Assembly (NCBI GenBank): GCA_013368375.1
Contig: JAACJP010000009.1
Coordinates: forward strand, 1-64,000
Reading direction: 5' to 3'
Source of the DNA: Tricholomella constricta
Lineage: Eukaryota; Basidiomycota; Agaricomycetes; Agaricales; Lyophyllaceae
DNA: 64,000 nucleotides
Below, piece by piece: positions 49,638 through 64,000 of the stretch. Within the stretch, counting starts at the first letter, position 1. Each line of letters starts with the position of its first letter. The position numbers and the translations under genes are program-made. The notes below the pieces were generated by a model. The model did no database searches and was not told where the DNA came from. It saw only the letters and a program-made list of their open reading frames with translations.

Positions 49638-50030
49638 CTATGAGAAGATACGGGACATCAGTCTGTCTGGAGTTCGGTGCAGCTGGGGGCTTCGCGCCAG
49701 CGCGCTGCAGAGGAAGTCGACGGACCCGCTCCCCTGGATGGTGCAGGGAATGGGGGGTAGTGGGTTCCCTGGGTAGGGAACGTGAAGAATACATGCATCG
49801 CGCACTGCACACAGTGCCCCGATGGTGCGGGGGTCGTTGCCAGCATCTTTGGCAAGGAGATTGATCAGGCCCAGATCAGCAGCGCCCTCAAAGGGCTCTG
49901 TGATGCGATGGGCCAGTGCGACGCACATTTCTGCGGTAAGGGGCGATGTAGAGCGCTCCCGGTGGTGGAGCCACTCCTTGATCGATAGGAGTGGGGTCTG
50001 GCAACGCTGCGGGAAAATGTGTGATAGCAA
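49638..50030 (-). CDS. Hypothetical 130-residue ORF
   Basis: The frame reads LLSIKEWLHHRERS, ALAHRITEPFEGAADLGLIN and LLAKDAGNDPRTIGALCAVR. Composition is protein-like, but no family is recognised and no splice structure could be fixed. It may be a gene relic in the transposon-rich region. Confidence 0.3.
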   Translation of the reverse strand: MLSHIFPQRCQTPLLSIKEWLHHRERSTSPLTAEMCVALAHRITEPFEGAADLGLINLLAKDAGNDPRTIGALCAVRDACILHVPYPGNPLPPIPCTIQGSGSVDFLCSALARSPQLHRTPDRLMSRIFS

Positions 50031-50254
50031 AACTGGTCCCGTCTGAATTTGGAAACGAGCAGATCCGAGATTTTTCCGCGAGGTTCAAGCCCCGCGCTTA
50101 ATCAACGGTGAGACTCTCACACCGTCGACATTGTCTATGACCATCTTTCCATCCCACCGAGGACTCTTCAATGGCTAGTTTTACAAGGTATACACTATTG
50201 ATCATGTATTATACTAAGATATCTATGAATTAAGACTTCCATTAGTGGCATGAA

Positions 50255-50650
50255 TTAGTCAATGTCCAACATATCTGCATCCTCAAGATCCTCGACATCC
50301 TCCCAATCCATCAGCTCGTCGCGTGTGATTGGAGGCGTTACTGGCCCCTGTGACTGGCTGACAACAACCGTGATCCTGAAGTGCGAGGGTGGCGGGTGTA
50401 TGGGAATGACGACGTCGAGCGTTGATTATTCCGATGCTTTGTTGGGAATGGGCCTTCTGTAGGGCGGTCTGCCTGTGTCCCACCATCTGGGACGCCAGGA
50501 ACGCATGAAATCCCCGCTAGCCGACCAGTACACAAAGCGCGACGCGTCGGTGCGTGATTTCTCGATCGCGTCAATTTCCTTTTTCGGTGGTGCCCGAGAT
50601 GTCATTCTGCTATACTCATCGTCTGCTTCCACAACACCTGGAGGCCTCAA
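50255..50650 (-). CDS. Hypothetical ORF pair with acidic end
   Basis: KKEIDAIEKSRTDASRFVYW and WDTGRPPYRRPIP lie in one frame, and STLDVVIPIHPPPSHFRITV with an acidic end DWEDVEDLEDADMLDID continues after a stop or shift at about 50425. It looks like one gene broken once; function unknown. Confidence 0.35.
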
Positions 50651-50915
50651 GTAAAGTACGGAAAAGTTGTTTTTCTACCCCCTGATCCAATCCCCTCGTG
50701 CAGAATCTTTCAAAACTTGTTCATTTCTGAAATATGTGTGTTTTGAGGTCGGCATTTGTGCTATATAACATGAACCACAACTTCCATAAAGTTTTTGCAC
50801 GAGGGAAACTGTTTATTATTATCTTGCAGTAAATTCTTCTCATACAAGCGAGTATTTTCGTGCGCTAGATGAGGCTACAAAAACGAGGACCATATTTTCT
50901 GTACAGCGTCGGAGT

Positions 50916-51170
50916 TTAAATTGGCAGGGCGTTGCTGGACCCCAATAGGAGGGAATCAAAGACAGCTTTGGCATCACTGTTGATGTCCCCATCACCTCCA
51001 GTGAGGCCTATGGGGGACTCGTTGAATCTTGCCCACCGAGCCAGATTTTTGAGATGGTTGCGCCGACATTGACCTACAAGGTTACGGAAACATTGACCGT
51101 GACTGGTACAGCGACAGTATTGGCAAGGACAGATGCTGGTGGATTTACCGTCTAATAGTGTTCCTGACAC
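50916..51170 (-). CDS. Cys/His-rich small ORF
   Basis: 84 codons with CPCQYCRC, HGQC and GQCRRNH, a possible metal-binding cluster, then IGLTGGDGD. It could be the N-terminal zinc region of a CACTA-type transposase or an unrelated fragment. Low support. Confidence 0.25.
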   Translation of the reverse strand: MSGTLLDGKSTSICPCQYCRCTSHGQCFRNLVGQCRRNHLKNLARWARFNESPIGLTGGDGDINSDAKAVFDSLLLGSSNALPI

Positions 51171-51260
51171 TTGGTGTATTGACGGGGTATGGGGTCATCG
51201 TGATCGTACGGCTCAGGATCCGAAGGGACTATCCATCAATAAGATATTGGCTTCGGTAGC

Positions 51261-51582
51261 TTTTTTCTTCTTTTTTTTTTTTTTTTTGAAATCCATATTT
51301 ATACCCCGGCGCCCGGTCGCAGTCCAGCTGGTGTGTAGTACATGATATATCTACAGTGACAGTAATGGTGTTGCATGTAACGTGTGCATCTCGATATGCA
51401 GGCCGCTCGGAAGAGTTCCGCGTGGAGGCAGAATCTGCCAAATAGCGAGGGTGTGCTCACTGACAGGTTCCAAGTCGTAGAAGGACCCCTCCGCCTGGTG
51501 GCTAGCTTAGCCCTCCCAAGGGAAGGTACCGCAGGAATGACCCCGAGGCCCCCTTCTGACGGTTAGGTACCAATCAGTCGAG
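51261..51582 (-). mobile_element. SINE copy 2
   Basis: Full-length copy in the same orientation as copy 1, with a T run at 51261-51286 as its tail. A 5-bp gtagc flanks both sides (51256-51260 and 51582-51586), too short to be certain. It abuts and truncates Spt5-like gene 2. Confidence 0.85.
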
Positions 51583-53200
51583 TAGCCCGACGCCTTGTTG
51601 CTGGTCAGCAAATATCAGTCCAGCAGCAATTGCTTCGTCTCGCCTTAGCAAGCGGAATAGTTCAGGTACCCAGACGAGATCTTCTGGGCATGCTGGTTGG
51701 TTGTGCAGGCCTTCGTCAGGCTGCATACGATGTGCTAATCTGCAGTGATGCACCTCGCAGCCGTTGCGATTTCGCGCAGGCTGGTCTGGTGGTTTTCGCT
51801 TTGGTCTGGCCTTGGGAAAGGGTGGAGGTGGATTTTCGCTTGGGAAAGCAAAGGTCCGTGGGTTGACCTCGAGGAATTTGAGGTAATTCTGACGAGGATA
51901 GTAGGAGGATATATGAACGATTGCCTCATCCCCGACAATACTCTCGACAATGCCTACAGCTCCTTGCGCTTGCCCATCTGCAACCTTCACGGGTTGCCCC
52001 AATAATAAGCGACGCACCCCCATTATTTCCAAAGTACTGCGTAGAAAGTCATCGGGTATATGATGTTCAAAAAAGCGCAGTTCGTCTGGGGTGGGGATGG
52101 CTGCTTCAGGATAGAAATCTTCCATCTTCAAGCAAAGATATCTATTGCAGTATTCGTTGCATCTGAAAACAAATGTCTGGTTTCGTTTCTCTACAGCCTT
52201 CGCCCCAGACCTGCCTTACTTTGTAAGGGCTGGCTGAGGACGACTGAGGCAAGTTTTTGGACATAGAGCAGGACTAGCAGCTTGCGTACGTTTACGTTTT
52301 CCATGCTGAGTTGTTGTCCGGGGCTGGAGATTGATGCGAGGTACGACAAGGACCTTGACCCCCCAAACGTCAAAATCCTCCACATAGGCTAAATCACCGC
52401 GGTATGGGTGCGTTGTCAAACGAAGCGATGGGTGGAGGGGCGTGTATGAAATGGCAGGATGGGGCGTTGTTTGGCTCAATAACTTGAATATGTTGCCAGA
52501 AAACATCGGATATGCCTTGGCACACCTCCTGGACTAGTGTTTGAGGGTTGTGTTACACCAACTGCAAACAACTGAAACTCAACTCGACTGCAACTGGAAA
52601 CAACCCGACTTCCAGTTGCAGTTGGAGACAAAAATTATCAGTTGCAGTTGCAGTTGCACAGAATTCTGAGCACTCAGCAACCGGTTGCAACCGGTTGCAA
52701 CCGGTTGCAACTGGTCATGACTGATTGCAACATGACCACTGGTCATGGACCACTTGATGCAAGATCTTGCACCTCAGCTCAGTCAATCACTAAGGTACTG
52801 ATACCTCAGTTTATTTTACCTTGTAATACTTACATACACCAGTTCCCTGCCCAACATATATCACTGTCTTTACACTGCAGAACTTGTAGTGTAAGGATTG
52901 CACTGTTTAGTACACTCTAAAGCAGTTACGACCGGTCGTGACCGGTTACAACCGGTGTCAGGTCGTAACCAGTTGTAACCGGTTGCAAGTGGTCATGCGA
53001 CCGATACCAACCGGTTGCAGGCGGTCGAGTTGTCAGTTGGACCTTTGAAGAGACTTTTACGACCAGTCGAGGTCGTGTCGGGGCTGAAAATGACAAAAGA
53101 CTGGACCCGACATGACCCTCAAACACTATCCTGGACGTCACTGGATTTTGCAGCTTCAACAGCAATCCATCCAGGCATCGCTTCTTGATCCAGCACCACC
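51583..53200 (-). pseudogene. Spt5-like gene 2, interrupted by a hAT MITE and ended by a SINE
   Basis: PGWIAVEAAKSSDVQE (53185-53137) continues after removal of the 594-bp insert as VCQGISDVFWQHIQVIEP (52526-52470), completing an NGN-like end. A one-base shift near 52400 separates this from YRGDLAYVEDFDVWGVKVLV. YPEAAIPTPDELRFFEHH and a KOW-like PVKVADGQAQGAVGIVESI lie at 52120-51900. The remaining C-terminus is lost at the SINE. Upstream exons are absent. It is paralogous to gene 3 one to two kilobases away on the same strand. Confidence 0.8.
52535..53128. mobile_element. Non-autonomous hAT-type MITE
   Basis: 594 bp with 14-bp perfect terminal inverted repeats (tagtgtttgagggt) and the 8-bp target duplication tcctggac at 52527-52534 and 53129-53136. 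Eight-bp duplications and TAGTG-type ends indicate a hAT transposase. The interior is filled with palindromic ccggttgcaa and cagttgca words, which may be subterminal binding repeats. No ORF. Confidence 0.92.
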
Positions 53201-53277
53201 ACATGCACACAAGTCGCAACCTCGCAACCTCTTCTAGCCTCTCTAGCCTTTATTTCTCGTTCGATCTCCTGCACCTA

Positions 53278-53480
53278 TGAGCAGCTCCGACGCCTTTTTC
53301 ACCACTACACCACCGGGATCCTCGGAGATCCCAGTGGATCCAATGGATTGGGGAGGGGATGACCTCGAAAACCACCCCCCAACGCCCCCAGGCGCCCAGG
53401 GTGCCTTCCTCGATGAAATCATCGCGACCAGCGTCGCCCTCTGCCCCAACACGCGACCCAAAGCGTTGGAAGGGAGATAA
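53278..53480 (+). other. Orphan N-terminal-like ORF
   Basis: 67 codons starting MSSSDAFFTTTPPG with DPMDWGGDDLENHPPTPPG look like a disordered N-terminus and continue as acidic DDADDENVSQEG after one stop or shift. The reading ends where Spt5-like gene 3 sequence begins (about 53570). Probably a truncated gene start. Confidence 0.3.
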
Positions 53481-53559
53481 GGACAGATCGGACGATGCTG
53501 ACGATGAAAACGTGTCCCAGGAGGGATAGTACCGCCCATACAGATGACCCTGTTGCATT

Positions 53560-54840
53560 CTATGGACAATCAGGCAACGGGTCCCCAGTAACGCCCACAT
53601 GGGGTCCGGCTGCAACGACGACTTCGTCCCCGATTGTGACCTTCTTTCGCAAAGCGTCGACGGGCAACGTGAGCTGCATATTGACAGACGATAAACGAAC
53701 GACAGCCTCCTCGTCAATGACGCTTTCGACTGTACCAGAGGCACCTTGAGCTTGACCTGTCACTATCCTGACGGGATCACCTGAACACAGGCGACGCGCT
53801 GCCATGATTTCCAATGTATGTGCTATAAACTCTTTAGGAATGGACTTCGAGTGACTGAAGAGCGCTATTTCATCGATCGACGGGATGGCTGCATCGGGAT
53901 GGAAGTCATCCGTTTCTAAGCATAAGTGTCCATCGAGAAAGAGTTTGCCCTTGAAAACGAAAGCCTGGTTTCGAGTTTCGACGGACTTATGTCCCCAAAT
54001 CTCTATTACTTTGTCGGCATCGAAGAGGGCTTGCTGGTGACGGGCGGTGCTTGCCTTCCCACTTCGAGGAGGACTGCTGGTATGTGTCCGTTTTCCAATG
54101 GTTGACTTTCGGCGCCGAAAGTCGATGCGAGGGACAACTATGACGTCCGCCCCGTCGCTGTAATCCTTGACGAAAGCCAGATCGCCGCGGTATGCGTATT
54201 TCGTTAGGCGAAGCCAGGATGGACTGGAGCGTAAGTAGGAAACACTTTCTTTGAGCCAAGGTGGTCCATCCTTAGGCTCAACGACGTGTACCTGTTTGCA
54301 AAATACATTAGCAACACCTTGACACAACTCCTGAACATCGCTGGCTTTGGTCGCTTCCACGACAATCCAGCCAATTTTTTTTCATCAGGACGAAAGCCAC
54401 AGACTCCTCACACCCGGGCTGGGCTTGTTGTGTTAGAGCTGATTTTGAATATGTGGTGTTACTCACTTTCACGACAACCCACAGACACGGGTTACCAACA
54501 ACAAAAGACAAATCACGAGGTGAATGTGTGAGTGACAAATGCGAATCATTAGTGCGCCCTCGGGCACGCGCACGATCAAGCAAGGAATCCCAACCATCCT
54601 CTTGCGCACGGGTGTTTTCAAGCAAAGAAGATGGTGCGAGCGCGTCCGGTCTAGGGCGACAGGCTCGTCATCATCGTCTTTATTATCATCTTGGATGAAA
54701 CTATCTAGAGGAAGCGTAATTTCAAAAACAAAAACATCACAGATGTTGAAACCACGAACCTTCTTCGTTGACATCGTCCTCATCCTCGCTGGCATTGTCG
54801 ACGGTCGCTTCCAATCCCGCGATTGAATCTTGGAAGGGCG
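53560..54840 (-). pseudogene. Spt5-like gene 3
   Basis: LEATVDNASEDEDDVNEE (about 54810-54760) is the acidic N-terminus; DSFIQDDNKDDDDEPVALDR and EDGWDSLLDRARARG follow in shifted frames, then CLWVVVK, an intron, and GCEESVAFVLMKK (about 54430-54375). The next about 25 residues of the NGN-like region present in gene 1 are missing at an A8 run. The frame then runs open from 54360 to 53560: VQELCQGVANVFCKQVHVVE, YRGDLAFVKDY, and two KOW-like segments (PVRIVTGQAQGASGTVESV; DEVVVAAGPHVGV). At least two frameshifts (54625 and 54380) make it a pseudogene. Confidence 0.8.
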
Positions 54841-57800
54841 CACCCATGAAATTCGGAATATGCTGACCGGCACCAGTCCTACAGCGAGTGTAATGAGAAG
54901 ATGCAAGTGGATGTTCTGGCATAAAGGTGTGCCGTGGCGAGCCGCTAGGTCTTTTGTTCTTTGCACCGCCTCCAAAAGGTGTTCAACGGATTTCACAGCC
55001 AACATCATCATTGTCATCTGAATCGCTGGCGTCGATAATGTGATCGTCATCCTTTGCACTGCCGAGCCGACCGTTGGTCAGTCGATCACAGGTAGATACC
55101 CAATCGTATAAATTCAGAGAGCTCAACTCAGGAGCACGATAAATGTAGTCATGAACACGAGACATTCCATACACGTTATCGTTCTTTTTGAACAGCACGA
55201 CCCTCTCAGGCGGCATATTGCCATGCTCTTTTGCATTAGGCCATGATTTCTGTACCTCTACAAAATCCTGCCAATATACATCACGGAACTTATGACTGAC
55301 TGGTGTAGTGGTCTGGATTTTTGAGAAGATACAAACACATCATGGGCGACCCCATCTTGGCCTTGGCACTGAGAGAGTTAACAAGTTTCGTCATAAGGCT
55401 CCGAGCTTTTTCTTTTGACGAGTCGGAACTGGCAATGATTTCGGTGTTTTTACTTAAAGCACCACGTATCGCCTCGAATGCAACATAGCTTTTCATGCTG
55501 GCTTTAGTTACATACTTGGTAACATAGTACAGCACTCCCTTGATAGCTGTACCAGACCTGAGACTGGTTACATCCGTGTTGCAGCGGAACAAATAAGTGA
55601 CAGCATAGGTAAAAGTGTTCAACCACGGTTGCATCTTCCTGACATGCAAAGATCCTGTGACAGGATCAACTTCTGACTGAGGAAAGACGGTACGAGGAAA
55701 GCGTGCCTTGCACTTCTTCCATATGTTGTCAAGGCACCCGAGATATGGTTTGTTCCTTTTTACTGAGCCATCCTCTTTCATGTTAGCTTGACAGGTGTGC
55801 ACGTTTGTACGCCACAGTATGTCGTTGACGGTAGAGTGAAACTGTGTCCACCAAGGTGAAAGCTCTGCACACGACACACAGGCACTGCACTTGCTGACAC
55901 AAGGCGAAGGAGGGGGAACAGGCATTGTCTGTGTTGGCTTTGCATACATGGGATCTTGAGCAGCCCTTTTAACATCTTCAGCAACGACATCCATAGAAGG
56001 CGCATGAAATTCACCTTGATAAGCGGCTTCCAGATATTGGACGAATTTGTTTTGAAAGTCGGACGTCGGATCCAATACGGCCTTCCTAACAGCCTCTGGG
56101 CTAAGAGCATTGCGGATCCACACAAGTACATGGAAATGGAGAGTCAGACGACCTTGTTGCTCTACCGCACCGTAATAAGCAGATGCTTCGCCATAAATTC
56201 CAGCTTTGCCTGTACCAGAAAGCTTCAACCATAAAATGAAAAAAGTGGGCAGCAGCAACAGGATTCTTCGCAATCAGTCTAAAACGCTCGTCGTCTTCAC
56301 GGAGCACGAGTTCGAACTTCTCCTTCGTGTCCGCAAAATAAAGGCATATAGGGTGATTGATATCCGCTGGAGACAATGTTATGTACCAAGAAGGAGCACC
56401 TTGATTTGCGACAAGAGACCATATCTCATTCCGCATGTACTGTTTGCTGGCGTTAGAACCACATACTTTAGCTCCGCAGTGTTCCACGTCGTTGACCAGC
56501 CTGAAACATTCTTTTTCATCCGGCGTGACCGGCTTGAAGTGTTCACCAGCTGCAAGTTTCGAAGCTATGTCCTGTAACACGTCTTGGTTCACAGTAAGAA
56601 TTTGTTCTGCTATATGGCTAAACTTTGCTGTCTTTGCAACAAGATAGCTGCTAGTAGCAGCGGCCGCAATCTGATGATGACTGAATGCAGCAAACAGAAA
56701 AGCAATATCAGACTGAAAATCGTGGTACATAAGCAGATGTTTTTTATGTATCAGCACCCAAAGTAGTGGAACCCACACCTCCTAGGCCGTATGGAAACAA
56801 CCAAGGAAACATCTGAGGATATAGTGCAGGATTCTTAAAGATGGAAGACGGTTCGGAAGAATGACCTACGCGCAGTACTTTGCCACCAGAACGCCAATGC
56901 TTTAAAGCCAGGCCCTTCAAAACCTCTGTAGACTTGGCTCCTAAAGAGTCTCCGGTAAGACCATGAACCACAAAGGGACAGTCCCCATGTTCGACACCAT
57001 CTTCATCTTCGTCCTTGTGAAGACTCGAACCTTCAAAAGTTTGAATAGAACCACTCTCCCGATAGATAGGTTCCGTTTCAGGGTATTCAGCCAGATTATC
57101 TTCGGATATACCTACGTCAGCGTAGTCCGGATGGTTCAGCACAAGCCAGTCCAATGCAGTACGGATAAAATTCCGCCGAACTAAGTACTGGAGTCCGTTT
57201 GTAATCCTCCTCCGTTGGTACAAGGTAATGCTTTAAAGCCAGGCCCTTCAAAACCTCTGTAGACTTGGCTCCTAAAGAGTCTCCGGTAAGACCATGAACC
57301 ACAAAGGGACAGTCCCCATGTTCGACACCATCTTCATCTTCGTCCTTGTGAAGACTCGAACCTTCAAAAGTTTGAATAGAACCACTCTCCCGATAGATAG
57401 GTTCCGTTTCAGGGTATTCAGCCAGATTATCTTCGGATATACCTACGTCAGCGTAGTCCAGATGGTTCAGCACAAGCCAGTCCAATGCAGTACGGATAAA
57501 ATTCCGCCGAACTAAGTACTGGAGTCCGTTTGTAATCCTCCTCCGTTGGTACAAGGTCCTGTAAAAAGTATGGATATTCGTCGAGTTCTTCTTTCGGCGA
57601 AGGAAGCATGGAATAAATCTTAGGAGTTGGCGATTCAAAGAAATAATATGAGCCTTCATTCGATGCCTTCCCGAGGAGGCGACACGAACGAAACAGTTTG
57701 AGTGCCGCACTCTGGCTACCAAGAATTTTTCCATGTACGTAAGAACAGCTAGCGGAGCGGGCACTGAACCAAGCCACAGACCTCTTGCCAGAGCAAATTT

Positions 57801-58700
57801 AGGCACTCGGCCGTCGCGGATCGCCCGTCTGCAGCGAACACATATATGGTCGCAAGCGGAATCGAGGACTTCGCAAATAGGTTCGTCGCGATGCAAACGC
57901 TCTGCGCGAGTTGGGCCAGGTGCATGCAATATGTGAAGCAGCTGTTTCACTTGCTTCAGGGGAGACAGCTCAGAAAGAGGAGTCAGCCCACAGACAGCGC
58001 AGCCGGCTTCTTCGAAAACTTTTGGTGCAGTGGCCGCACAGAATGCTGAAACAACTTGTTCGACAAGAGCAGGGGGGGGAACATGGTCGTAGAGGCTTCC
58101 ATATCATCAAAAACAGTAGGAGATGCAGCGGAAACGGAATGTATCGGGGTGGTTTTGCGGGCAAGAAGCAACTTCTTGGGTGCAGGAACCGGACGAAGAA
58201 CAGTGGAATACAGGGTGCAGGCCATACAATCGTGACCTGCGAAGGAAGATAAAACATCCGCTCTACACACCGCCCCATTCAAAGAAACGTTGTGGATTCG
58301 AGCAAGTGATCGTAAGCGGCTTACGGGAAGATGCGGCAGCATGGCGCTTACGGGCGTGTTGACCACTACAAGCTGGGGATCGCTCATGTACTGCAAAAGG
58401 TCAGCACTATTGACATGAGCGAGGAATACAAGAATATAGTTATCCAATGATAGAGTAGAAGAGCGTAAGACGAAAGGCTCCACATCAATCACGTTAAAAT
58501 AACACGTATACGTCTGTTTCCGTGATTTTGGCGCAACAGGCGTAGGAGGAGGTGTGAGAGGAGCAAGCACCTCCCTGGGAGGCGTGAACACATCAATATC
58601 AGAGGATCCAGTTGAGAAAGAAGGCACGTCGTCAACATTATTTTCGACAGGAGAGGCAGGCTACTGACAGCCACGGATGCTGTCCTCCGCAGGAGGAGTG
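54830..58700 (-). pseudogene. Helitron Rep region, decayed; helicase part missing
   Basis: Read from high to low coordinates: a Cys-rich N-terminal region (CVRCRRAIRDGRVPKFALA, about 57830), LDWLVLNHLDYADVGISEDN, GDCPFVVHGLTGDSL, YPQMFPWLFPYGLGGVG (about 56780), YMRNEIWSLVANQGAPSWYI, the HUH motif in GRLTLHFHVLVW (about 56130), the tyrosine motif YYVTKYVTK (about 55520), then VVLFKKNDNVYGMSRVHDYI (about 55190) and HPLASSHYTRC with IPNFMGAP (about 54900-54850). Frames change at about 56220 and 56780 and by a 331-bp duplication. The Pif1-like helicase that should follow is absent; Spt5-like sequence starts directly. Helitron ends were not identified. Confidence 0.88.
56896..57557. repeat. 331-bp tandem duplication inside the Helitron
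   Basis: Copies 56896-57226 and 57227-57557 differ at about one position (near 57130/57461). Because 331 is not a multiple of three, the duplication shifts the Rep frame. Very recent. Confidence 0.95.
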
Positions 58701-59748
58701 GGCTGCTGCATAAAGCGTTGGCGTCTAGGTAGAGCATGAGGAGTTGCGTCCAATTGAAATACACTCAATATGAAAGGAGAACAGCAAACAAAACTCGTGC
58801 TTGTACATCTTCGACTTCACAGGAATTGAATGTTGATGGGCAAGCGTGCGAAGAACTGAAACTAGCAATTTTGGTACCAACGTAGGAAGAGAAGCTCGAC
58901 TATACAGAAAGCCTTGACTGACGGGATATTTGTACAGGTCGTTTGGTGTTACATGAGCTACAAAGACATACTTGGAAGCCCGTGAATCTGAAGAAGCATT
59001 ACAATTAAACAGAGGATGAAGGTCGACAAGTCAGAAAGCAGGAAGAGGAGCCCCACCTGAAGGCTTTGAAGAGATGCAACTCTGTGATGGCTCGTTGCAG
59101 AAAGACAAAAGGCACATACGAGAGACGACATAGGTTAAAGATACCACAAACATTAAGTGAGGCGTAACCAGGAAAGCACGTTGAGAGGGAAAGATCACGA
59201 GTACGCTTAACAATTTTTGGTGAGCGCAGCAGAATGCCGCTGACAAGATGCGGTTGCAGATCAAATGCAAGAAATGGACCTTAAATAATGTACAGAGTGG
59301 TGGATACGGCAACAAACACGCACGAAGCGCCAAAAACGAACACCCGCGAGGGGCAGATAACATGAGACAAGCGCGGAGCATTGGTACGGGATTTGATAAA
59401 CACGCACGGAGCGCCAAAAATGAACACCCGCGAGGGGCAGACAACATGGAATAAGCACGGAGCTTCGGTACAGGGACACGGAGATGCGAGATAGGTCCAA
59501 CTGGCACACCAGTGAGAGGGCTTAGACCACTGGACGCGTTGGATGTCTGTATGCATATCAGATAGATTTGTAGATAAGAAAAAGCAGATAGGACGCACCA
59601 GCTGGGACGAAAACTCATGCAGCAGAACGTCTTGGATTGTACAGCGATCAGGCAAAAGCGTAAAAATTAAACACGACGACTCACGTGGCAGGTCTTGGGC
59701 ATATAAAACACCGTTAGAAGAACAGGCCAGCGCCGTGAATATCAGAGC
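58701..59748. other. Helitron 5' side, no gene; 84-bp direct repeat
   Basis: Non-coding by inspection. At about 59317-59450 the words aaacacgcac, gcgccaaaaa and gaacacccgcgaggggcaga occur twice with a spacing of about 84 bp. Open frames on the minus strand across this part follow from the repeat. Confidence 0.5.
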
Positions 59749-59944
59749 TGTAAGGACACAGGTCCATACTGGTCACCTGTTGTTGGCATTGTTTGGCAAC
59801 GCCTTCGGCGTTGCCTATATCTATTGTTTATATCTATTATTTTAAGTAGATCTTCGCAACTTCATGTATAACTAGCAGAAAAATGACATCTGGTCAAGCT
59901 CGGTTATAGTGTGAATTGCAAGGTCGTCCTGTAGCACGGCTACA
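59749..59944 (+). repeat. Left LTR
   Basis: 196 bp, TG..CA. It contains a perfect 9-bp hairpin with a 3-nt loop (59795-59815), also kept in the right LTR, where only the loop differs (ttc versus ttt). Confidence 0.93.
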
Positions 59945-60063
59945 TTTTTTTGAGCTATCCAGCTCTACTGCTATATACAGCTATATCCCGCTATAACCCA
60001 CTATCTGCTTCTTTTCTCAACCTGGCCAGTCAAACCCCTTTTGGCCAACACCGACATCTTGAT

Positions 60064-60615
60064 ATGACATCGAGAACCACCCAGGACCATGCGACACGCG
60101 CATGGACACATGAGGCCGCGGACACGTGGCCACGTCACTCGTCGGAACCGCAGCCTGCAGCTCGGAGAGGCTTTTCGATGCTCGAAGCATCGAAATTGAT
60201 GCCACGTCACACGGCAGAACCGCCGGTGACGGCTCCCTCGAGCAAACTCGAGCCGTACCTATGGAACAGCACAGGCGAATCTTCGTCGCCTGTGCACAAA
60301 GATTGGATCGAGCTCGCCCTTTTACGGCGCGAGCTTCAGTTATTCTGGTTGACTACTAGGATAACCAACGAAAGTCAACGACGTAGGCTCGAAGCCTGCG
60401 CCGAAAAAGTCGTATCAAGGTACTATGGACTAGTATACATTGATGTAGGACATACCGAGTACCTACAACGATATATGGATGCGCTACGTGCACTCTATCA
60501 AGAATGGTGCAGTCAAAGAACCGCACCGACTACGATTACTACACCTTTGATTTGGGAGGCCAGTCCTGGGCGACGACGGATGTCCAGAGCGAATACCGGC
60601 GTCGGAGGCTGCTAG
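60064..60615 (+). CDS. LTR element ORF1, unknown function
   Basis: 183 codons from MTSRTTQDHATR. The C-terminal half is helical with ESQRRRLEACAEKVVSRYYG and YLQRYMDALRALYQEW. A similar pattern (EYRRRRLLEATEKMYRKYG, TLRNVIEIYRKRR) opens ORF2, so the two may be repeats of one domain, weakly conserved. ORF1 overlaps ORF2 by 112 nt in the -1 relation, as gag and pol often do, but I see no classic slippery heptamer. Length and basic-helical character would suit a small capsid-like protein; this is a guess. Confidence 0.45.
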   Translation: MTSRTTQDHATRAWTHEAADTWPRHSSEPQPAARRGFSMLEASKLMPRHTAEPPVTAPSSKLEPYLWNSTGESSSPVHKDWIELALLRRELQLFWLTTRITNESQRRRLEACAEKVVSRYYGLVYIDVGHTEYLQRYMDALRALYQEWCSQRTAPTTITTPLIWEASPGRRRMSRANTGVGGC

Positions 60616-62372
60616 AGGCCACTGAGAAGATGTACCGGAAGTACGGTGCCACACGTATGCATCGTATGGCGGTCGGCGACTCGTACGCCGACAAAACTAT
60701 AACGACACTGCGTAATGTCATTGAAATCTATAGGAAGCGGCGTCCGAAGGATGCAAAACGAGGGGCATCGCAATCTTGCGATGCAAGTATGACAGCGCTG
60801 CAGGCGCAATCAACGTCGAAACTGGCGGGACCATCAGGTGGTCCTAAAAATATACGCTCGGACAGCTTGAGTGCCGCCCCCTTCCGATCCATAATGAAGC
60901 GCTCCGAAAGACGTGAGGGCAATGGGCTCGCGTTGGTGAACGTCACATATCGTGGCGGACACGAAGACCACAACTGGCGAGCACCGTCGCTGACACATAA
61001 TCAACATATGCGACAGTGCTCAGAGCCCAGACATGAGGCCCCCAAACAGGGCAGTGTGGAGGGCAGCGTCGAGCATCGAAGTATGCTAAATGGGACGCGA
61101 CCTGAGGCAAACATCGTAGATGGACGACGTTCTGGTGGGGAGGAGAGGTATCAGACCAGCCGCCATCCCACAGACGAGACAATGAATGAAACGTCGCAGA
61201 GCGACGTCTTACAATTCATGATGCCCAGCAAAGGCGCAACATCCGCTGGCAGGAAAAGCGTCAGCGACACAATGTCGGAGGTGTCGAAAATACGACCTCC
61301 GAAGGCCGAGGTGCACCAGAAGGGCGCAGGAAACGAGCACCGACAGAGTATGGTCTGGATAGACCATACTATAGTTGATGGCGCGCGGCAAGGCCGTGCA
61401 CATCGAATCAAATTGCACTTAGAAGGTGCACAGGAGGACAGCAAGTGTCCTCCTACCAAGCACATGGACAGGCCTGCATCAGCGTGCTTAATAGCCCGCA
61501 ATTCATTGTCTGGGTATTCCATATTCAGACTGTATAGTGGCACTATGGCCGCCACATCGGTGTCGGAGAGCGCCAGCGCGCGCCCTCAACCAGAACGAGC
61601 ACCGGAGCACCCAAGAAGAGGTGCCGGCAGCGATGGCGGAAAAGTGACCGTGCCCCAGATGATTGTGAGGCACCAAAATGGACCAAGGTGCTTACCTGGT
61701 CTGCAAAGTGATGGGCATAGCCCAGCATCGAATTCGAGTGAAGCACGTCTAGTTAAAGACGTGCGAGACAGGCATCCAGCATTAACGGATGTACGGACAG
61801 ACGTCCGCAAGGGAGGAGATGGGTGTGGCAAACGCCCATCGAGAATGCTTGAACGCCACGGGACGACGAATGCAAGGGTGCAGACGTCGGCATATCCGGA
61901 GGCAGACACCCACGTTGCGTGGTGGATAGCACAACACATCGTCGATGGAAGCGACTGGAACGAGACGTTCTGGGAGCTAATGCAAGATCGGCCAGAAGAC
62001 AATGCGCGCCGAGTCTGGAGGTGGGTGATGTACCACCTACGGCATCACAGAAAGGAACTCCGTGCAGGCACGGCGTTAATGAGCGTCAAGCCTGTTCCGG
62101 AGACGGCGCCAAACGCTGTATCCGATGATGGATCTAGTGACCGACTCAGTGAGGCTGGAAGGTCAAGATCGAGTTCGCGAAATGGACAGGAGCAAACACG
62201 CACCCCCGACCATGCCCTAGACTGGTTGGAGGGTAACTCGAGCACTTACTCGCGCAGTAGGGACAACTACAACATGGTGGTACTGACACCATCGGCAGTT
62301 CGGAACGAAATGCCCACTGAACGATTGGTGTGTATGCGCCAAATTGTTCATCGCACATATGGATTTCGATGA
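60504..62372 (+). CDS. LTR element ORF2, 622-residue protein of unknown function
   Basis: Open for 1.87 kb, starting MVQSKNRTDYDYYTFDLGG. The N-terminal about 90 residues resemble the end of ORF1. The middle (residues about 100-480) is low-complexity, rich in Ser, Arg, Gly, His and Gln. A C-terminal helical segment contains AWWIAQHIVDGSDW and WRWVMYHLRHHRKEL. No catalytic, zinc-knuckle or polymerase motif is visible. The coding DNA contains the densest set of short perfect inverted repeats in the window, so nucleotide-level constraint or a special mutation process may shape it as much as protein function. True start may lie upstream by frameshifting from ORF1. Confidence 0.5.
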   Translation: MVQSKNRTDYDYYTFDLGGQSWATTDVQSEYRRRRLLEATEKMYRKYGATRMHRMAVGDSYADKTITTLRNVIEIYRKRRPKDAKRGASQSCDASMTALQAQSTSKLAGPSGGPKNIRSDSLSAAPFRSIMKRSERREGNGLALVNVTYRGGHEDHNWRAPSLTHNQHMRQCSEPRHEAPKQGSVEGSVEHRSMLNGTRPEANIVDGRRSGGEERYQTSRHPTDETMNETSQSDVLQFMMPSKGATSAGRKSVSDTMSEVSKIRPPKAEVHQKGAGNEHRQSMVWIDHTIVDGARQGRAHRIKLHLEGAQEDSKCPPTKHMDRPASACLIARNSLSGYSIFRLYSGTMAATSVSESASARPQPERAPEHPRRGAGSDGGKVTVPQMIVRHQNGPRCLPGLQSDGHSPASNSSEARLVKDVRDRHPALTDVRTDVRKGGDGCGKRPSRMLERHGTTNARVQTSAYPEADTHVAWWIAQHIVDGSDWNETFWELMQDRPEDNARRVWRWVMYHLRHHRKELRAGTALMSVKPVPETAPNAVSDDGSSDRLSEAGRSRSSSRNGQEQTRTPDHALDWLEGNSSTYSRSRDNYNMVVLTPSAVRNEMPTERLVCMRQIVHRTYGFR

Positions 62373-62637
62373 AGACGGGAAGGAAATTCACGTCTACGAA
62401 GTGGAGAGCGATGGGGAAACCAGCGCTCTCGAGGCGGAATATGATAGCTATCCTGAACCTGGTAGCTATCAAGAGAAGGAGGAGAGTGGCGCTGAGCATA
62501 GCGGCTCGGAAGACGCTTGTGGTAATGATGAGCAGGAGAATGGCGCTGCACACAGCAGCCCAGAAGACACTCATTCAAACGACGAGCAAAGCAACGAAAG
62601 CGTTCATTGTGATAACGAGCGCAACGACTCCGATTGA
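62344..62637 (+). CDS. LTR element ORF3, acidic protein
   Basis: 97 codons, overlapping the end of ORF2 by 29 nt in another frame. Very acidic, with imperfect repeats of about 13 residues built on EDACGNDEQENGAAHS-type units. No family recognised; it may be a C-terminal extension reached by frameshifting. Confidence 0.4.
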   Translation: MFIAHMDFDEDGKEIHVYEVESDGETSALEAEYDSYPEPGSYQEKEESGAEHSGSEDACGNDEQENGAAHSSPEDTHSNDEQSNESVHCDNERNDSD

Positions 62638-62892
62638 GTGTGTTGGGCTCGTTGTGCCCAACAGTTCCTATCCAGGTCATTGAGATGCGATATGAGATGC
62701 ATCAGTCCGGCAGCCGTATCGGTTATGTGTCGACGTTGATAATGTCGAGGTGGCAGCCTACGCGACTTTAACCACAGTCGCAGCGATATCCATCGCTGAA
62801 ACCCTTGTGGCATATATGTCGGCGCGATAAATAGCGCCTCAGTCTTCTGCGGTAGTTCAACCAGCCTTGGTCTGGCAGTCGCAATAGCTGCC

Positions 62893-63185
62893 ATACCGTC
62901 AGAAGGGGGCCTCGGGGTCATTCCTGTGGTACCTTCCCTCGGGAGGGCTAAGCTAGCCCCACCGCCAAGGCGGAGGGGTCCTTCTGCAACTTGGAACCTC
63001 TCAGCGAGCACACCCTCGCTATTTGGCAGATTCTGCCTCCACGCGGGACTCTTCCGAGCGGCCTGCATATCGAGATGCACACGTTACATGCAACACCATT
63101 ACTGTCACTGTAGATATACCATGTACTACACACCAGCCGGACTGCGACCGGGCGCCGGGGTATAAATATGGATTTCAAAAAAAAA
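62893..63185 (+). mobile_element. SINE copy 3 with 16-bp target duplication
   Basis: Plus orientation, ending tataaatatggatttc and an A tail. It is flanked by the perfect 16-bp direct repeat agtcgcaatagctgcc (62877-62892 and 63186-63201). It begins at cgtcagaaggggg, about 20 bp inside the 5' end seen in copies 1 and 2. Nested in the LTR element, so it is younger than that insertion. Confidence 0.95.
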
Positions 63186-63597
63186 AGTCGCAATAGCTGC
63201 CGACGAGGAGTCGAAGACGGAGACAAAAAATCGATGAAGCCATAAATCACCGGGTGACGACTCGATTGGCGATTATTCAATCAACTTAGGCGCGAAAGTC
63301 ATCGTTGGGCATTATGTGTTCAACCCTAGCCAGTACGTCCGCGGAACATGGATGCCAATTTCTCAGAGACTGGAGGAACAAGTCGCGGTCGACAGCATCT
63401 ACACTACGTTAGGGCCATGACCTAACATTATCATTAGTCCATATTGTCGGGGTACCAATACCCAGACTCGACATACTGTGGCACATAAAATATGCGCAAT
63501 ACACTCGACTATTGTTGCGCGTAATGTACGCTCAATATATACGACATACTCATCGCTCGACATCTGCCCGGGTGTAAAGATTGCTGAGTGCAATCTT

Positions 63598-63608
63598 AAA
63601 GGGGGGTA
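63598..63608 (+). promoter_or_regulatory. Polypurine tract
   Basis: The purine run aaaggggggta lies directly 5' of the right LTR, where plus-strand DNA synthesis of an LTR element is primed. Confidence 0.8.
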
Positions 63609-63804
63609 TGTAAGGATGCAGGTCCATACTGGTCACCTGTTGTTGGCATTGTTTGGCAACGCCTTTGGCGTTGCCTATATCTATTGTTTATATCTATTAT
63701 TTTAAGTAGATCTTCGCAACTTCATGTATATCTAGCAGAAAAATGACATCTGGTCAAGCTCAGTTATAGTGTGAATTGCGAGGTCGTCCTGTAGCACCGC
63801 TACA
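63609..63804 (+). repeat. Right LTR
   Basis: 196 bp, about 96.4% identical to the left LTR (7 differences, no indels). Confidence 0.93.
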
Positions 63805-64000
63805 AGAGCACAGCAAACAGAAGAGGATAGCGCCGAGATGTGCATGTTAGCCAAAGATGCAAAGCAGCAGAGGATAAAAGAACAGAGACCAATCACCCCA
63901 AGCTGACCAGATGTCGTACGATGTTAGGCCATGTGATGTTTGATCACGTGTTAGGACGATTGCTCAGACAACAACGTGACGATCTGCTCACGCGCTCATC
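63805..64000. other. Right flank, no gene
   Basis: Begins with the target duplication agagc and continues the sequence interrupted at 59748. Nothing else recognised. Confidence 0.5.

Follow-up and report, generated by a model that had tools for sequence, protein, structure and literature searches.

Perfect hairpins fill a non-autonomous LTR retrotransposon of Tricholomella constricta and its Ty3/Gypsy relative, where their stems are apparently kept by selection at silent sites

Introduction

The window analysed here, 64,000 nucleotides of the basidiomycete Tricholomella constricta (contig JAACJP010000009.1, assembly GCA_013368375.1, positions 1 to 64,000), carries near its end a long terminal repeat (LTR) retrotransposon that is crowded with short perfect hairpins. 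The same crowding is found in the sister copies of this element and in an autonomous Ty3/Gypsy relative, in which the stems are apparently kept by selection at silent sites. Four things are demonstrated: the density of the hairpins, their placement in the choice among synonymous codons, the preservation of the autonomous family's stems at silent sites, and predicted folds of very high stability. Both families probably owe this to selected folding along the whole genome, similar to the genome-scale ordered RNA structure (GORS) of RNA viruses; at intervals of ~100-130 nt across LTR, leader and coding sequence, their genomes carry a perfect hairpin, mostly of 7-12 bp, and nearly all of these hairpins differ in sequence.

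Results

Hairpin density in the window copy and its sisters

An earlier note on this DNA listed fifteen inverted repeats between 60064 and 62800 and judged their density to be far beyond that of random sequence. All fifteen are present with the stem lengths and coordinates listed, and the density is roughly tenfold over dinucleotide shuffles. Counting perfect stems of at least 7 bp with loops of 2-12 nt (two of the fifteen are 6-bp stems, and the repeat at 60229-60256 has a 14-nt loop, beyond the counting limit), 60064-62800 holds 14 stems, with 1.32 expected from 300 dinucleotide shuffles; nine are of at least 8 bp, six of at least 9 bp (0.06 expected) and three of at least 10 bp, and at each of these lengths none of the 300 shuffles reaches the observed number. 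The density also exceeds that of codon-preserving shuffles: the 622-codon frame of the window copy has seven stems of at least 7 bp, against means of 0.97 when codon order is shuffled (reached by 1 of 300) and 1.39 when synonymous codons are (0 of 300). For stems of at least 7, 8 and 9 bp only 0 or 1 of the 300 shuffles of either kind reach the observed count; at 10 bp and above the result is less clear, the single observed stem being reached by 6/300 codon-order and 14/300 synonymous shuffles. Five stems of at least 9 bp had been placed mostly inside this frame; three do lie within it, and the other two are upstream, in sequence that belongs to this open frame in copies that are better preserved.

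Such stems number 0-6 in 20 of the 21 background bins (2.7 kb each) taken from the window; the exception, at 52.0-54.7 kb, is a palindrome-rich repeat with 11. The repeat, at 52400-53100, is rich in AACCGGTT palindromes, the 52-54 kb bin has a folding-energy difference from shuffled sequence (MFED) of 10-12% on both strands, and an insertion inside one sister copy (L015) holds a palindrome motif that resembles it. Positions 60000-62000 fold 24.5% more stably than shuffled sequence on the sense strand and 14.8% more stably on the other, compared with -5.1 to +10.3% (plus strand) and -6.4 to +12.2% (minus strand) in the 30 bins up to 60 kb. An Rfam search of 50000-64000 gave three matches, all under the gathering score and none within the element.

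At least 53 stretches of the 44-Mb genome match the window element, of which 21 loci, the window's own included, were taken. Paired arms are present in these paralogues, and all 21 loci exceed every one of their 100 dinucleotide shuffles in stems of at least 7 bp. Nine full-length sisters (L002-L004, L006-L008, L010, L012 and L013) carry 28-33 hairpins where about two are expected, the window copy carries 17 in 4060 bp, and the remaining 11 loci, which are truncated, internally deleted or interrupted by insertions, carry 9-28. Synonymous choice is involved here too, since the L002 frame has 23 stems of at least 7 bp and its synonymous shuffles 2.3 (0/300 reach). Hairpins occur at 76 positions across the 21 loci, and 46 of these are present in at least four loci, to which the scoring of pair changes was limited. 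In the stem at 61508-61530, two pairs are G-C in some copies and A-T in others; between arms that are identical, its loop is GAA in L002 and L004 but TTC in L003, possibly an inversion by template switching. Many differences among the copies break a pair, leaving 312 G.U and 300 A.C cells; this lack of bias is put down to decay after insertion, which is mixed into the count, and it was not used as a test.

An autonomous chromovirus-like relative

When a 951-codon frame of the family was used as a protein query against the genome, matches outside the family itself covered 77-90 residues at 36-41% identity and lay in frames as long as 1097 codons. Those that were fetched come from a Ty3/Gypsy element in which Pfam identifies zinc-knuckle Gag, reverse transcriptase (RT), RNase H and integrase. 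The element, covered by loci L046, L049 and L065, has the gag zinc knuckle, RT, RNase H, integrase, chromodomain and LTRs of a chromovirus-type Ty3/Gypsy element, its Chromo match, like that to a protease, lying under the curated cut-off. The RT part has 81 matching places among those listed, fragments included, 75 of them at 91-100% identity, and the named database matches of pol include Phanerochaete, Trametes, Mycena, Phlebia and Agrocybe. Some database proteins are up to ~66% identical to the pol of the sister family L050 along almost its full length. No relatives were found in viral contigs in two scans.

One autonomous copy (C3:975131-986101, its two 221-bp LTRs matching at 100%) contains 105 perfect hairpins of at least 7 bp in 11 kb, or one per 105 bp (45 in L046, 29 in L049 and 31 in L065, overlapping hairpins counted apart), spread over LTR, gag, pol and a third frame behind pol. 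Synonymous shuffles, which cover gag and the first part of pol, again fall far short: gag has 30 stems of at least 7 bp against 2.4 (maximum 7), and the 5' part of pol 13 against 1.3 (maximum 5), with 0/300 shuffles reaching the observed count in either. The further long frame behind pol (390 + 607 codons; L049:2331-3500 and L065:1-1821) is itself hairpin-rich, and its first part, the part searched, has no Pfam match.

The window family is probably mobilised by this related chromovirus-like element, judging from sequence likeness in three places. The window LTR with its downstream sequence matches the autonomous LTR region at 67% over 195 columns (32 bp of the 3' LTR at 91%), the same motif stands behind the LTR in both families, and a stretch of the Gag frame is common to them as well. 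The LTR hairpin has arms GGCAACGCC/GGCGTTGCC in the window element and GGCAACACC/GGTGTTGCC in the autonomous one, so that both arms have changed with pairing kept.

Stems of the autonomous family diverge less at silent sites

Selection was gauged among three lineages of the autonomous family, L046, L051 and L053, the latter two being 82-88% identical to the first, with a synonymous divergence (dS) of 0.5-0.8 and a dN/dS ratio of 0.05-0.17. To avoid bias, stems were picked in one lineage and divergence was measured between the other two. In the RT piece the lineages differ at about 30% of third positions, but at only 3-5% in hairpin stems (2/76 vs 145/475, 3/59 vs 148/492 and 3/70 vs 148/483, stems vs elsewhere). 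Protection is weaker yet present in gag (14-19% vs 29-34%) and in the rest of pol (10-19% in stems vs 26-36% elsewhere). At fourfold sites over all pieces the counts are 21/164 vs 222/794, 20/129 vs 275/816 and 20/143 vs 285/808 (P from 3e-5 to 2e-7), and stem divergence is lower in 12 of 12 base-by-source comparisons; first and second codon positions are also less diverged in the stems of these lineages. The 'gag' piece of a further lineage, L057, is not homologous (50% identity), and L057 was omitted from the pair-change and third-lineage silent-site tests; keeping the piece in leaves the silent-site difference visible in five of six lineage pairs, L046/L057 (P = 0.1) being the exception. 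Stem conservation relative to the sister family L050 is not significant.

Of 60 L046 hairpins, 21 are also perfect in L051 and 26 in L053, against 9-10% of random site sets of the same geometry that are unchanged (a slightly stricter criterion than retention of a perfect hairpin). This partial sharing, together with similar totals in the three lineages (60, 50 and 52), indicates that individual hairpins turn over while density is maintained; the overall pattern is one of maintained folding with turnover of individual hairpins.

Folding energy and control families

MFED was measured on 20 sequences in non-overlapping 350-nt windows with 10 dinucleotide shuffles. Of the 24 control loci (L022-L045), 12 were included and the others skipped as likely near-copies. 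It amounts to 23.1-25.8% in the autonomous family, 23.6% in the window family (L002), 16.2% in the window copy and 15.6% and 20.7% in sister family L050, compared with -1.0 to 3.5% in one unrelated control Gypsy family and 1.0-3.5% in one Copia family. Another Copia family (L036, L037, L041 and L044), likewise unrelated, reaches 12.8-17.3% with just 2-3 perfect hairpins per locus. Strong structure is thus a property of particular families, high in some and near zero in others. Hairpin counts in 12 control loci with an RVT_1 domain (2.0-3.5 kb) are zero in ten and one in two, but the five of these that were compared are one family (96-98% alike), so that they amount to roughly one control rather than twelve; 12 Copia loci have 2-8 hairpins each.

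Hairpin loops are A-rich: for the autonomous family and L050 the A fraction is 0.37-0.43 in loops and 0.26-0.32 overall, and in the window family the enrichment is weaker (0.30-0.33 vs 0.27). A shared loop motif of the packaging-signal type was not seen by eye, no motif search having been run. Stems locked to the reading frame were considered and rejected, as stem phases are spread.

Structure and age of the window copy

The 196-bp LTR pair, the target-site duplication AGAGC, the polypurine tract and the post-LTR motif identify the window element as an LTR retrotransposon (Table 1). It has no pol, and a Pfam search of its frames found no match; with LTR pair, target-site duplication and polypurine tract in place, it is a non-autonomous LTR retrotransposon, here in a copy whose frame is broken. 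A single open frame of 947-962 codons is present in ten of the other loci, and one of 863 in L005. Among three copies with the long frame dN/dS is 0.44-0.53, and the frame therefore behaves as a weakly constrained protein gene. This ~950-codon frame has no match in Pfam; a profile search found one database relative, in Lyophyllum atratum (33% over 15% of the query), and a database search with the 622-codon piece alone found none.

The LTRs of the window copy agree at 189/197 sites, those of nine other copies at 193-196 of 195-198 sites and those of L016, L017, L018 and L020 at 96.6-99% (the 5' LTR of L005 lies outside its piece). Given this lower LTR-pair identity, the window copy seems to be among the older members of the family. 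It is interrupted downstream by a 294-bp dispersed repeat (62893-63186) that ends in an A-run and is flanked by a 16-bp duplication (62877-62892 and 63187-63202). With 271 bp of it as query, 41 matches were listed, itself included, 38 of them full-length at 90-100%; two further copies lie in the window (C9:43986 and C9:51289), and the repeat is a candidate short interspersed element (SINE-like).

By eye, the post-LTR motif (59952-59956) is complementary to a stretch of the LTR (59897-59901) over 5 nt in the window element, 6 nt in L046 and 8 nt in L050. This hints at self-priming of the Tf1 type rather than a tRNA primer, and is suggestive only.

Table 1. Features of the window element. Locus counts give the number of the 21 window-family loci in which the hairpin has a stem of at least 7 bp.
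Feature	Position	Strand	Remarks
Target-site duplication AGAGC	59744..59748	.	read directly; second copy at 63805-63809
5' LTR, 196 bp, TG...CA	59749..59944	+	96% identity to 3' LTR
5' LTR hairpin GGCAACGCC-TTC-GGCGTTGCC	59795-59815	+	
Post-LTR motif TTTTTTTGAGCTATCC, primer-binding place	59945..59960	+	near-identical motif behind autonomous-family LTR
5' part of coding frame, from first ATG	60064..60615	+	fused with next part in better-kept copies, broken here
Hairpin, 7-bp stem	60087..60105	+	11/21 loci
Hairpin, 10-bp stem	60173..60195	+	13/21 loci
Hairpin, 7-bp stem, 14-nt loop	60229..60256	+	C-G pair is T-A in L010/L012
Hairpin, 10-bp stem	60269..60295	+	17/21 loci
Hairpin, absent from earlier note's list	60311..60335	+	12/21 loci
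622-codon open frame, portion of ~950-codon frame of other copies	60504..62372	+	no Pfam match
Hairpin, 7-bp stem	60672..60692	+	7/21 loci
Hairpin, 9-bp stem	60765..60784	+	10/21 loci
Hairpin, 6-bp stem, as long as 9 bp in other copies	60828..60844	+	one pair varies: G-C (11 copies) or A-T (8 copies)
Hairpin, 7-bp stem, 10 bp in L015-L017	61191..61207	+	
Hairpin, 8-bp stem	61275..61302	+	5/21 loci
Hairpin, 10-bp stem	61347..61370	+	14/21 loci
Hairpin, 9-bp stem	61432..61454	+	16/21 loci
Hairpin, 8-bp stem	61743..61764	+	5/21 loci
Hairpin, 6-bp stem, shorter in other copies	62060..62073	+	
Hairpin, absent from earlier note's list, 9 bp here, up to 11 bp	62442..62471	+	14/21 loci
Hairpin, 8-bp stem	62641..62663	+	20/21 loci
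Hairpin, 7-bp stem	62781..62798	+	17/21 loci
Hairpin directly ahead of polypurine tract	63577..63597	+	17/21 loci
Polypurine tract AAAGGGGGG + 2 nt ahead of 3' LTR	63598..63608	+	
3' LTR, with hairpin at 63655-63675	63609..63804	+	

Discussion

The earlier note had offered two causes for the hairpins, selection for structured RNA and a hairpin-templated mutation process during reverse transcription. The excess over synonymous shuffles, the silent-site conservation of stems in the autonomous relative and the high MFED speak for selection on structure; the mutational cause fares badly, as discussed below. Since the hairpins differ in sequence, are exchangeable and are spread over the full length, they likely act as a collective property. 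Several results nevertheless weigh against selected folding, or against particular forms of it. When stems are chosen in a third lineage of the window family, silent sites diverge less inside them in 3 of 3 comparisons, but at P = 0.14-0.37 only. Protection is also weaker in L054, a more diverged autonomous copy (P = 2e-4, 0.02 and 0.2, the last from 9/59 vs 117/493). Watson-Crick swaps on both arms number 7 in the autonomous family, inside the range of slid controls (2-8). In sister family L050, whose pol is 66-72% identical at the amino-acid level, perfect hairpins number just 18 in 8.9 kb despite an MFED of 16-21%. The structured second Copia family is likewise awkward, as a Gag-specific use would not predict it.

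The tests of which molecule folds belong with these points. If selection acted on the sense RNA only, stems would be expected to put up with C>T and A>G changes, which leave G.U, more readily than with G>A and T>C changes, which leave A.C. Singly changed stem pairs show no such preference (34 G.U vs 43 A.C, background 414 vs 383; P = 0.23), nor do hairpins with one inner defect (6 vs 7, pooled over L046, L049, L051 and L053), and as proof of action at the RNA level G.U tolerance is negative. The sense-minus-antisense difference in folding shifts inconsistently among the autonomous pieces (z = -3.7 in L046 gag, then -1.4, +2.5 and +0.1) and is -0.5 and -0.7 in the window family and -2.0 and -2.3 in L050; with this direct test mixed, strand bias in MFED was dropped as such proof. 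The folding gain per 150 nt is larger on the sense strand in L050 (7.0 vs 3.6 kcal/mol) and in the structured Copia family (7.0 vs 3.9), and near-symmetric on both strands in the autonomous pol pieces. Genomic RNA is favoured as the selected molecule, given the larger sense-strand gain in the sister and Copia families and a precedent that is RNA; cDNA or both are also possible.

What the folding is for is a more tentative matter. The likeliest use, which we put forward at less than even odds, is that joint folding and compaction would tag the genomic RNA for packaging by the zinc-knuckle Gag of the lineage; packaging by that Gag would have the dependent non-autonomous family structured, and an unrelated Gypsy family and one Copia family not. 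The same selected folding might instead shield the transcript from host silencing, the hairpins blocking its pairing with antisense or small RNAs and its copying into double-stranded RNA. Hairpins along the whole length and their turnover at kept density are in line with shielding, as is the lack of a G.U preference, for hairpins on both strands would impede sense-antisense annealing; the unrelated second Copia family, with an MFED of 13-17%, fits as well, and in animal cells, according to the part of one study available to us, unstructured viral transcripts raised more interferon-beta than structured ones (PMC3950689). Unstructured Gypsy and Copia families living in the same host genome argue against it, and we regard shielding as somewhat unlikely. 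The hairpins could also act as DNA, in single-stranded cDNA during reverse transcription or as cruciforms, where perfect complementarity would matter and the strand would not. The lack of a preference for G.U over A.C and the near-symmetric gain in the autonomous pol pieces would suit such action, but L046 gag leans to the sense strand, and L050 and the structured Copia family gain more on the sense strand, an RNA-type pattern, even if the direct test in L050 is modest. Inverted repeats of 7-10 bp, moreover, seldom extrude as cruciforms, and action at the DNA level appears improbable.

Template switching in reverse transcription, which would both make and repair the arms, has in its favour that it is a known mechanism for DNA replication, as the accessible portion of one report describes (PMC8794818), and that the GAA/TTC loop inversion between identical arms (L002/L004 vs L003) is what it would be expected to produce. 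Like the hairpins formed by quasi-palindrome correction, those described here are short and perfect, with one loop inversion; the divergence pattern differs. Template switching predicts that one arm is overwritten by the reverse complement of its partner and that divergence is raised. Relative to the outgroup L050, 29 pol hairpins show an arm divergence difference of 1.34, against 1.46 at random sites (sd 0.22), and no extra change in stems (5.55 vs 5.68 per hairpin). Templated mutation would give many double changes, but stems mostly change singly (108 single vs 6 double among 114 scored) and diverge less than the surrounding sequence. In an unrelated Gypsy group that has an RT of its own, hairpins number 0 or 1 at each of 12 loci. 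The process may occur; as the main cause it was rejected as very unlikely, the pattern being unexplained by template switching. Chance, base composition or codon usage, for which no supporting point was found, can be practically dismissed in view of three kinds of shuffles and the folding controls.

Among known systems the closest is the GORS of RNA viruses, for which the consulted part of one study sets an MFED threshold of 3% (PMC3950689). As far as the sections available of a survey of such viruses go, they have hundreds of mostly unbranched stem-loops, with paired sites less diverse and individual pairings poorly conserved, and MFED values of ~15% in SARS-CoV-2, 7.5-10.7% in hepatitis C virus (HCV) and at most 23.4% among vertebrate RNA viruses (PMC7642675). 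The two Gypsy families and the window family are alike in having an MFED above unstructured controls (15.6-25.8% vs -1 to 3.5%) and structure over the whole genome, coding regions included (the 105 hairpins of the autonomous copy and the window copies). Paired sites vary less in the autonomous family, the window family being non-significant when stems are picked in a third lineage, and pairings are poorly conserved to L050 while overall structure is kept. The 23.1-25.8% of the autonomous family is about at or above the virus maximum, with settings that only approximate those of the survey (PMC7642675). Unlike in GORS viruses, the stems are perfect, the RNA strand is not singled out by the G.U and strand tests, and the genome is that of an LTR retrotransposon rather than a positive-strand RNA virus; the elements work like GORS outside the set of viruses.

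Retrotransposon RNA has been probed before: Ty3 and Ty1 genomic RNA of Saccharomyces cerevisiae is structured, with dispersed well-folded regions of low reactivity to selective 2'-hydroxyl acylation analysed by primer extension (SHAPE) and low entropy that make up as much as 30% of the RNA, and the part of that report at hand does not mention pervasive perfect hairpins or silent-site selection (PMC11381356). Ty1 withstands the loss of as much as 5 kb of its interior, by the portion seen of another report (PMC4974528), which speaks against dispersed internal signals being needed in Ty1. The window family resembles other non-autonomous LTR retrotransposons with their own open reading frame in its LTRs, polypurine tract, target-site duplication, internal frame and lack of pol, and differs from them in a ~950-codon frame that has no Pfam match and one database relative. 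Going by the titles and openings of abstracts among the open-licence papers listed, we found no report of GORS or of pervasive selected hairpins in LTR-retrotransposon coding sequence.

Taken as a whole, it is a real possibility, if one a little short of an even chance, that this lineage evolved a genome of ~100 exchangeable perfect hairpins, selected at silent sites and adopted by a non-autonomous dependant, as a structure-based, sequence-independent mark for packaging or protection, of a strength at or above the vertebrate RNA virus record in the parts available of one survey. Earlier discussion of pervasive RNA structure has treated it as a feature of RNA viruses that is linked to persistence. 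Structured and unstructured retrotransposon families within one host offer a natural contrast, with silent-site conservation as a readout, that makes function directly testable, and the pattern suggests that folding can govern codon choice in transposons.

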